A DNA stretch of 63,326 bases from assembly GCA_025455485.1 (NCBI GenBank), contig JALOMJ010000004.1:1-63326 (forward strand), written 5' to 3'. Source of the stretch: Bacteroidia bacterium (GTDB lineage: Bacteria > Bacteroidota > Bacteroidia > B-17B0 > Aurantibacillaceae). Under the pieces are notes generated by a model. That model was not told the origin of the DNA, searched no databases, and was given only the letters and a program-made list of their open reading frames with translations. This document shows positions 19,343-22,682 of the stretch, piece by piece. The stretch's first letter is position 1. Each line of letters opens with the position of its first letter. The position numbers and the translations under genes were made by a program.

Positions 19343-21193
19343 ATGAAAATCATGCCGCCACTTCGCCTTCTTTTTCTCTTTACTATTTTTTTAGTTTCCG
19401 GAAATAATCTGGCACAAAATAACAATTCAGGCTTACTTGATTTGGATGGCGTGGTGTATGGCTACAATTACAACCCATATACCAAAGGTATTTTTAAAAA
19501 AGAAAAACAAATTGTTTTAGAAGGTACGCTTTCCGGGGTTGAACTCACGGTGTTTGAAAACAACCAACTGGTACTAAAATCTGTTTCCAATAAAAAGGGA
19601 GAATTTAAATTTAAACTGAAATTAGGTAAACTCTACCGTTTAGAATTGGTTAAAGCCAACCACAACAGTTGTTATTTATTGCTGGACCTAAGGAATATTC
19701 CAACGGCCATCTACACCTCAGGGTTCAGTTTTGACGCCATGGAGCTGATATTAAACAGTTACCTGAGCAAAGACACAGTTAACAGCAAACTACCTTTTGG
19801 TCGCTTGTACTTCAATGCCAAAGGAAATTTTATGGACTTTGAGGAGATGCTTCCAAAAAACAAAAAAAATCTCGAAATCCGGAAAAAGGAAAACATGACC
19901 CCAATTAATTTTATCCGCAAATCAGTGGAAAAAAATAAAGGCACCATTTTAGGAGACTATGCAGAGCCGGTGAATAAAACAACAAGTAAAAAAACAGTTG
20001 CCGTTAAAGATACCAGCAGTGGTACAGACAGTTTGGCTGTTCCGGTAAAAGTTTCAATGGTTAAACCACTGGAGCGCAAACCCCTGTCGCTTAATTTTGA
20101 TGCCATTACAGAAGATGACATCACAAAAAAGGAACTTGAATTATCAGACATAAGAAGACAGATTGAGCTGGACAAAATAAATGCAGTGACTCATGAAGAT
20201 AGTTTAGCTTTTCAGGAAAAAGAAAGAATTGTAGAAGCGGCCACAGTTGAGCTTAACAATGCCAAAAAGCTTATTGCCCTTCAAAAACAGGAGATATCCA
20301 GTCAGAAACGCTTGCTGATTTGGGCCGGTATCAGCATAGTGTTTATTTTATGTTTTCTGGGCCTCGTTGTTAAATATTATATCGACAAACGTAAATCCAA
20401 CCACATTCTCAGTGAAAAGAACAGGCGAATTACTGAGAGCATCAATTATGCCAAACGCATACAGCACGCCATCCTGCTCAGAGACGATGAAATCAGAAAA
20501 ATACTGCCCGATTCGTTTATTTTTTTCCAGCCCTTAAACATTGTAAGTGGCGATTTTTACTGGATTTCGAAACACGACAATAAAGTGGTGGTAGCCGCCA
20601 TTGATTGTACGGGACATGGCGTTCCGGGAGCGTTTATGTCTTTAATATGCAATTCCATTTTGTATGAAACCATCATGGATAAAAAAATATTGAACCCATC
20701 TGAAATTTTAGCCCGACTGAACAAAGGCATAATTAATTTATTACGACAGGAAAACGACGAAAATTCCAGCATGGACGGCATGGAGCTGTCCCTTTGTGTT
20801 ATCGACCACCAAACATCCATTATAGAGTTTGCCGGCGCCATGAACCCCGGCTTTATTGTACGAAATGGAAAAGTAGACATGCTGGAAGCCGATATACAAA
20901 CTATAGGCGGGATGAATTACTTTTTGGATAAAAGTAAGGATGCGGAATTTACCACCACACGTGTGCACTTGGAAAAAGGCATGAGTTTGTATCTGCTTTC
21001 CGATGGTTTTACCGACCAGTTTGGCGGACCTGATAACAAAAAGTTTAACAACAAACGTTTTAAACAGCTTTTACTTGACATTCAGGCACTATCAATGGAA
21101 GAGCAGAAGGAAGCCATTAACAAGGCGCTTTTGGACTGGATGGGCACTCAGGAACAGATTGACGACATTCTTATTATGGGCATCAGGTTTTAA
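19343..21193 (+). CDS. Membrane-bound SpoIIE/PP2C-family phosphatase (SiaA-like)
   Basis: A 616-residue protein with a signal peptide (ending NNLAQ). It has a carboxypeptidase-regulatory-like beta domain (about 30-125), a Lys/Ser-rich linker, a coiled coil (about 255-320), one membrane span (about 324-346) and a cytoplasmic PP2C domain. The phosphatase shows INYAKRIQHAIL, GDFYWIS, DCTGHGVPGAFMS and LLSDGFTDQFGG, which carry the metal-binding aspartates. Its 3' end meets the SiaC-like gene on the other strand; both stop codons use the TTAA at 21190-21193. In Pseudomonas, SiaA dephosphorylates SiaC while SiaB phosphorylates it. I infer that this enzyme is the phosphatase of the adjacent partner-switching set, with an extracytoplasmic sensor. 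Confidence 0.88.
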   Translation: MKIMPPLRLLFLFTIFLVSGNNLAQNNNSGLLDLDGVVYGYNYNPYTKGIFKKEKQIVLEGTLSGVELTVFENNQLVLKSVSNKKGEFKFKLKLGKLYRLELVKANHNSCYLLLDLRNIPTAIYTSGFSFDAMELILNSYLSKDTVNSKLPFGRLYFNAKGNFMDFEEMLPKNKKNLEIRKKENMTPINFIRKSVEKNKGTILGDYAEPVNKTTSKKTVAVKDTSSGTDSLAVPVKVSMVKPLERKPLSLNFDAITEDDITKKELELSDIRRQIELDKINAVTHEDSLAFQEKERIVEAATVELNNAKKLIALQKQEISSQKRLLIWAGISIVFILCFLGLVVKYYIDKRKSNHILSEKNRRITESINYAKRIQHAILLRDDEIRKILPDSFIFFQPLNIVSGDFYWISKHDNKVVVAAIDCTGHGVPGAFMSLICNSILYETIMDKKILNPSEILARLNKGIINLLRQENDENSSMDGMELSLCVIDHQTSIIEFAGAMNPGFIVRNGKVDMLEADIQTIGGMNYFLDKSKDAEFTTTRVHLEKGMSLYLLSDGFTDQFGGPDNKKFNNKRFKQLLLDIQALSMEEQKEAINKALLDWMGTQEQIDDILIMGIRF

Positions 21194-21573
21194 GCCGATA
21201 CTTCCTCTAACTCAAATGGGATTTTGAGCATACGCTTAAATTCCTTGCCCTTAATTTCCATTAAATCGTCTTCTTCGTCGTATTTCCATACAATCTTTAC
21301 CTCTTTTCCCGTATCCATTAACGACTCAATGGTTTTAAACAGAATCAGGAGTTGTTTTATGGAGCTTGAATTGAAATACTCAAAATGTGTTTTTAGCTCT
21401 GTTACTGGAAGTGGATCTTTTACATACTCCCGCATCCACTCTATAACCGGCTGATAAAATTGAAAGGAATCTTCCGGCAGAGAGCGGCCTGATATGGTAA
21501 ACACTTTTGCTTCCTTATCAAACATCACTTCAGGCGATTCTTTACTGCCTTTTAATTTTAGTGCCTTTTGCAT
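21190..21573 (-). CDS. SiaC-like regulatory phosphoprotein (DUF1987)
   Basis: A 127-residue protein matching the DUF1987/SiaC family. It shows SPEVMFDKEAKVFTISGRSLPED, which is the characteristic opening, then YFNSSSIKQLLILFK, which holds the expected Ser/Thr phosphorylation region. In Pseudomonas aeruginosa, SiaC phosphorylation is set by the SiaA phosphatase and SiaB kinase and governs a diguanylate cyclase; no SiaD homologue is visible here. It lies two bases downstream of the doubled SiaB-like gene and converges on the PP2C gene. Confidence 0.88.
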   Translation of the reverse strand: MQKALKLKGSKESPEVMFDKEAKVFTISGRSLPEDSFQFYQPVIEWMREYVKDPLPVTELKTHFEYFNSSSIKQLLILFKTIESLMDTGKEVKIVWKYDEEDDLMEIKGKEFKRMLKIPFELEEVSA

Positions 21574-21575
21574 TC

Positions 21576-22682
21576 TTATATGGCTATGTTAAGTGAAAAA
21601 AATGACAAGTCGGTTCCTGACAATGGCTCAAATTCATAGGTTAAATCTTTCCCCCCAAATTTAATTATTTCCATAAAGCCAACCCCTGCACCGGAGCCTT
21701 TTTTATTACTGTCCTCATTTAAAATTGTTTCAGTATAGAGTTCGTCCATTCTTTCGGGGTGTTCGGCCAATTCTCTAACTTTATTTATGTGTGTTGAAAT
21801 AATGTCCTTTTTTGCATTCGGCACAAAGTTCCCCGTCATCACATGGTATTTCCCTTCTTTTAATAAAATGGCAAATACGCCTTCCTTCCCTTTTTCCATT
21901 GCCACGCCGTGCCTGCTGATGTTTTGCAACATTTCAATCAGGATATAAATGATTTTTTTTCTGGCGCCAACGTGTTTAATGGTATCCAGGTTGGTGGTTA
22001 TAATGTCCAGCAAAGGCAAAATGGCTTCTTGCGAAAAATCTCCCTTTTGAATCATGATGACATTTTCTTCCACCATGTGTTTATACAAACGTTTCACTTC
22101 TTCAATGTTGGCCTTATTTTGCGACTCCACCATCCTTTCGTTGGATAAATTAAGCACCAGCTGCATGTGAAACATGGAAAATGAACCGTTAAGGTCGTCA
22201 AAGGCAAATTCAAGCGGGTAATTGGTCTTTCTGGCCATTTCTATTAATCCAATGCCCGCGCCGCCTTTTGCCGAAAGGTTATTGTTCATCAGAGAGTTTT
22301 TATACACTTCCTCAAGCTCTTCAATGGAATAAGCATTTACCGAATTGAATTTTGAGCTCAGGCTGTCTTTGATCCCGTTGTCAATTAAATTACTTGAGCC
22401 AATATAATACGCATCGTTAATGTTCCTTACCAAAAACATCATGGGATGATTCAGCCCTTGTGCTTTTGCCTCCGATGTGTCGGAGTGCCGGATGATGTTC
22501 TGATAACACTCGTTCATCAGAAAAAAAACCCGCTTTTTAATTGTACCTGATTCGCCTCCGCTGGCCTTGTTTAAAAGCAGAAACTCGTATGTGAGTTTGT
22601 CGTTAAATTCGCCCAAATAAATCAGACTAAAATTATCCTGTGCCAGGGTTTTATAGAACGAGTATATGGTGTTTTTGCTCAA
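21576..22682 (-). CDS. Tandem SiaB-like kinase (two DUF6272 domains)
   Basis: A 368-residue protein made of two similar halves, each resembling the SiaB/DUF6272 GHKL-type kinase. Half 1 has NECYQNIIRH (about 57-66) and GGAGIGLIEMARK (about 140); half 2 has EMLQNISRHG (about 249-258) and GSGAGVGFMEI (about 330). The N-box Asn and glycine-rich loops survive in both copies, so both could bind ATP. Known SiaB proteins are single-domain, about 180-190 residues. The gene lies directly upstream of the SiaC-like gene and is presumably its kinase. The doubled form could give an intramolecular dimer with separately tuned sites. Confidence 0.85.
   Translation of the reverse strand: MSKNTIYSFYKTLAQDNFSLIYLGEFNDKLTYEFLLLNKASGGESGTIKKRVFFLMNECYQNIIRHSDTSEAKAQGLNHPMMFLVRNINDAYYIGSSNLIDNGIKDSLSSKFNSVNAYSIEELEEVYKNSLMNNNLSAKGGAGIGLIEMARKTNYPLEFAFDDLNGSFSMFHMQLVLNLSNERMVESQNKANIEEVKRLYKHMVEENVIMIQKGDFSQEAILPLLDIITTNLDTIKHVGARKKIIYILIEMLQNISRHGVAMEKGKEGVFAILLKEGKYHVMTGNFVPNAKKDIISTHINKVRELAEHPERMDELYTETILNEDSNKKGSGAGVGFMEIIKFGGKDLTYEFEPLSGTDLSFFSLNIAI

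Follow-up and report, generated by a model that had tools for sequence, protein, structure and literature searches.

The window, meaning the whole stretch of 63,326 nucleotides that was analysed, contains three adjacent genes resembling those of a SiaABC partner switch: a kinase gene encoding two SiaB domains in one chain, a siaC gene and a gene for a SiaA-like sensor phosphatase. The features are as follows:

21576-22682, minus strand: double SiaB (DUF6272 twice) kinase gene, 368 aa, TTG start
22152-22664, minus strand: N-terminal SiaB domain, residues 7-177, with E58, N62, N98 and G143/G145; the more constrained half
21579-22094, minus strand: C-terminal SiaB domain, residues 197-368, with E250, N254, N285 and G333/G335; the faster evolving half
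21190-21573, minus strand: SiaC (DUF1987, STAS-like) phosphoprotein, 127 aa; Pfam PF09345, aligned to P. aeruginosa SiaC (6k4f/6kko_C)
21367-21369, minus strand: SiaC Ser69 codon, aligning with the phosphorylated Thr68 of P. aeruginosa SiaC
19343-21193, plus strand: SiaA-like sensor phosphatase, 616 aa; signal peptide and outside region, transmembrane segment, SpoIIE/PP2C domain at residues 346-616

The siaC gene lies 2 bases downstream of the double SiaB gene (21573 and 21576) and the phosphatase gene is convergent on it, overlapping its stop codon by 4 bases, which agrees with the original prediction that kinase, target and phosphatase are encoded together. The TTG start of the double SiaB gene is supported by a relative (locus L047), as this starts at the same aligned position. 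Beyond these three genes, no neighbours common to the module were found among the loci compared.

Sequence and predicted structure of the proteins

In the 368-residue protein DUF6272 (PF19788) matches two stretches (183.2 bits, cut-off 26.6) and the SiaB family kinase model NF038262 matches twice (201.7 bits, cut-off 85), whilst the score against the biofilm kinase SiaB equivalog NF038264 is 80.6 bits, below its cut-off of 225. Direct alignment of the N- and C-terminal halves gave a BLOSUM62 score of 164, compared to 32 +/- 5 for shuffled sequences (maximum 49, n = 500): the likeness of the two SiaB halves is therefore not due to chance, and the presence of two SiaB copies in one chain holds. 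The proposed retention of the N-box Asn and the glycine-rich loop in both copies was likewise confirmed, with each half also displaying the catalytic Glu and the second Asn. Loss of the ATP site in one half can thus be rejected for the window protein, since the motif residues are present in both. Structure prediction (AF2, using an alignment of 26 sequences) returned a model with a pTM of 0.83 and two alpha/beta halves. The closest solved relative of this model is SiaB from P. aeruginosa (6kko_A; Z 17.5 over 165 residues, 2.5 Å), followed by SpoIIAB and RsbW with Z of 10-12; these comparisons fall mostly over the C half, and the superposition on 6kko_A concerns the C-terminal domain. The fold that we assign to the N half derives from a phmmer match to 6kko (residues 52-173) together with the secondary structure of the predicted model.

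In case of SiaC, the Pfam PF09345 match reaches 122.5 bits (cut-off 24.5), and the Ser/Thr characteristic of the family is present: Ser69 aligns with Thr68 of the P. aeruginosa protein (NSSSIK and NTSSIK, respectively), the residue that is phosphorylated there (PMC7647112). The SpoIIE domain of the phosphatase scores 83 bits (Pfam cut-off 25), carries the metal-binding Asp motifs of PP2C/SpoIIE phosphatases (DCTGHG, SDGFTD and IDD) and is closest to the SiaA PP2C structure 6k4e (2e-31). Against the SiaA equivalog NF038263 the protein scores 174.5 bits, with a cut-off of 700, and here the match covers the PP2C part only. A single transmembrane segment, judged by eye, lies near residues 325-347.

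Distribution and origin of the fused kinase

Other genomes were searched for fused DUF6272 proteins. All of the best 80 database loci (from a collection of named genomes) carry the SiaB-SiaB fusion, with SiaC directly downstream in 67 of them, and their hosts include Nafulsella, Cesiribacter, Crocinitomix, Salinivirgaceae and many Bacteroidales and Flavobacteriales MAGs. A long double SiaB match was also obtained in about 41 of 198 genomes evenly sampled from the class (a manual count of matches covering both halves), 1 of these being partial. Among the loci fetched from 60 relatives, most genus members with the fusion again have SiaB-SiaB, SiaC and a convergent phosphatase in this order. The fusion is hence neither rare nor a product of assembly: it is a widespread Bacteroidota variant, and the suggestion that a doubled SiaB is exceptional does not hold. 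The original prediction had named a fused form both common and already described as an outcome that would speak against it, and here the two parts separate: the form is common, but no description of it was found in the open-access literature, where DUF6272, "SiaB family protein kinase" and Bacteroidetes partner switching with SpoIIE and STAS proteins also yielded no paper. The window locus is a real and complete switch of the SiaABC type whose kinase is fused, a variant that is common in Bacteroidota and apparently undescribed.

Trees of the separate halves show that N halves of the main fused family cluster apart from C halves (93 SH-aLRT, 49 rows), and the split between the halves is therefore old. 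A recent internal duplication is rejected, as N halves and C halves each group separately across families. In locus L067, the N half falls among the B1 genes of unfused A-B1-B2-C operons, and the C half among their B2 genes; judged from these groupings, L067 is an independent fusion and there are at least two independent SiaB-SiaB fusion events. Loci L068-L071 may represent a third, the deep branches of the trees being weak. Neighbouring but unfused B1-B2 pairs of SiaB genes exist, and together with L067 they indicate that two non-identical SiaB proteins side by side are a recurrent arrangement. In one such tandem pair the first gene (L072:8057-8590) is without both the glycine loop and the second Asn, and is likely to encode a pseudokinase paired with an intact SiaB. 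Locus L048 (1920-4502) contains a tandem pair of SiaB-SiaB genes, giving four SiaB domains ahead of one SiaC.

Two further chains join components of the switch. The first (L170:5322-9944) is a 1540-aa protein in which a regulator propeller, Y_Y_Y, a SpoIIE phosphatase and a pair of SiaB domains are joined, with a SiaC gene next to it downstream; the second (L159:2331-3887) is a 518-aa SiaB-SiaB-SiaC fusion from a Draconibacterium-labelled MAG. These natural fusions support phosphatase, SiaB and SiaC as a three-part unit.

Proposed mechanism of the switch

The locus shares with the P. aeruginosa SiaABCD system the DUF6272 kinase domain, the DUF1987 target whose T68 position is Ser/Thr, the SpoIIE-type membrane phosphatase and the adjacency of the genes, whereas it differs in the doubling of SiaB within one chain, the replacement of Thr by Ser and the convergent phosphatase gene; furthermore, neither SiaD nor any GGDEF protein was found in the window genome, which is 82% complete. 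In Pseudomonas, SiaB phosphorylates T68 of SiaC and SiaA reverses this modification (PMC7647112), whilst SiaB residues involved in "SiaB dimer formation" have been described (PMC7278518). By analogy with this dimeric SiaB, the double SiaB chain would most simply act as a covalent dimer, the two sites of which would be free to diverge. The sequence shows the domain make-up, the conserved sites, the order of the genes, the natural fusions and the absence of GGDEF, whilst the kinase activity of each half, the pairing of the halves and the output are what we infer. We consider it probable that the locus encodes a partner switch of the SiaABC type, with SiaB as a covalent and asymmetric dimer that phosphorylates SiaC and with a target other than a diguanylate cyclase. 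In such a switch, the single chain with its two ancient, diverged SiaB domains would phosphorylate SiaC from the adjacent gene, with Ser69 as the most likely site; the membrane phosphatase would remove this phosphate once its outside region senses a signal, and unphosphorylated SiaC would then engage its target. The halves of a fused chain would presumably pair with each other, although an assembly of four domains, made up of two chains, is also conceivable.

The halves are not equivalent, and this bears on whether both act as kinases. Mean identity between proteins is 41% for N halves and 31% for C halves, and in 96.5% of the pairs compared the N halves are closer than the C halves. Of 119 distinct double SiaB proteins, 108 have all five motif residues in both halves, and amongst the 11 with a broken motif it is the C half that is affected in 9. 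R151 is Arg or Lys in 118/119 N halves, compared to 57/119 at the matching C-half position: the C half of the other 62 proteins is missing the Arg/Lys after the glycine loop and may therefore be weakly active. These differences all favour a reading in which the N half does the kinase work and the C half, on its way to becoming a pseudokinase, mainly serves as a scaffold or as a regulatory sensor of nucleotides, tuning the N half or docking SiaC; the loss of the glycine loop from one B1 protein of the unfused pairs (L072:8057) has also been counted in its favour. However, C halves retain the Glu and N-box Asn in 119/119 cases, the second Asn in 118/119 and the full motif in 110/119, which is too much for a dead domain, and we regard this division of labour as a serious contender that falls somewhat short of an even chance.

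Conservation of both sites also weighs against the idea that two neighbouring gene copies simply merged, neutrally and without any effect on function. Such a merger would fit the existence of unfused B1-B2 neighbours and the repeated origin of the fusion, but the main fused family is old and extends across many families, making this reading improbable. We find it similarly unlikely that each half has a SiaC protein of its own, with the fusion acting as a cross-talk or branching kinase: whilst the window genome contains six SiaC matches and five SiaB domains, and two of its SiaC genes are without a SiaB neighbour, a single SiaC lies directly downstream in most of the best fused loci (the 67 of 80 given above) and the SiaB-SiaB-SiaC fusion of L159 has only one SiaC. 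The covalent, asymmetric dimer acting on the neighbouring SiaC is thus the reading that we retain.

Compared with the SpoIIAB/SpoIIAA/SpoIIE and RsbW/RsbV/RsbU systems, the module has in common the GHKL kinase fold, a STAS-like target and a PP2C phosphatase. SpoIIAB and RsbW are separate homodimers and also bind a sigma factor; no sigma factor neighbour of the window module was seen. The fused SiaB offers single-chain material for asking what role each kinase site plays in a GHKL dimer.

Output of the switch

No GGDEF domain was found near the locus, in the window genome (82% complete) or in 59 relatives, with 53 of these 60 genomes being at least 90% complete and the same search positive in 8 of 14 control genomes. 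The output must therefore differ from the c-di-GMP output of Pseudomonas, in keeping with what had been proposed from the lack of a diguanylate cyclase nearby. In Pseudomonas, the known role of SiaABC is that of a c-di-GMP switch, yet here SiaABC is abundant, often with a fused kinase, where no c-di-GMP synthase was found: its general role must thus be something else. The interest of the locus lies less in the doubling than in this c-di-GMP-free setting and in an association with an exporter, which offers a concrete, testable output.

This exporter is a protein of about 1025 aa with ABC and ABC-2 membrane domains (ABCG-like by NCBIfam) that adjoins several SiaABC operons. For the N-terminal 250 residues, structure prediction gives a helical part like TerB (2h5n, Z 9.4; 2ou3, Z 7.5) and, after it, a sandwich resembling FHA (Z about 6; 5.6 with Rv1747 FHA-2); all of these Z scores are moderate. 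Canonical phosphothreonine-binding residues were not recognisable by eye in the FHA-like domain, and we therefore make no claim that it binds phospho-SiaC. In two related genomes (L080:10525-11649 and L077:3140-4273), proteins of 374-377 aa that combine the TerB-FHA-like N-terminus of the exporter with a C-terminal SiaC are encoded just upstream of the exporter gene.

Exporter and SiaC are both present in 48 of the 60 genomes and both absent from 9, with 3 discordant; taking one genome per family, the corresponding numbers are 14, 8 and 2 (Fisher p about 1e-4). Of 15 family representatives, 8 have the exporter gene no more than 2 kb away from a SiaC gene (1e-7 by a rough estimate of chance). 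Seven genus members have a second copy of the exporter along with a fused-SiaB locus: in six of these the two lie in the same fetched stretch, and in the seventh the contig breaks. The exporter of the window genome (TerB-like, FHA-like, ABC and ABC-2; C126:9108-12203, L169) is not beside the window module, and most exporter-linked cases involve a single-domain SiaB-SiaC module. Since it is encoded on another contig and the links are mostly to single-domain modules, the exporter is only a lead for the window module: it is the best candidate output in the class, and one that we put forward tentatively for the window module.

Extending this genomic link, we would suggest with similar reserve that in Bacteroidota free of c-di-GMP the SiaABC switches, of which many have a doubled and asymmetric SiaB, use SiaC to control an ABC exporter. 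Either phosphorylated or free SiaC would bind the TerB-FHA region, providing a post-translational export gate under a periplasm-sensing phosphatase. A precedent for a STAS protein controlling an ABC ATPase is MlaB-MlaF (PMC7367683), and Rv1747, an FHA-ABC exporter, provides one for the FHA part, although both belong to different transporter families. On a further contig of the window genome (C49; L043:6231-12195), a gene for a 1515-aa multi-sensor SpoIIE phosphatase is followed by tightly spaced SiaC, SiaB and SiaC genes.
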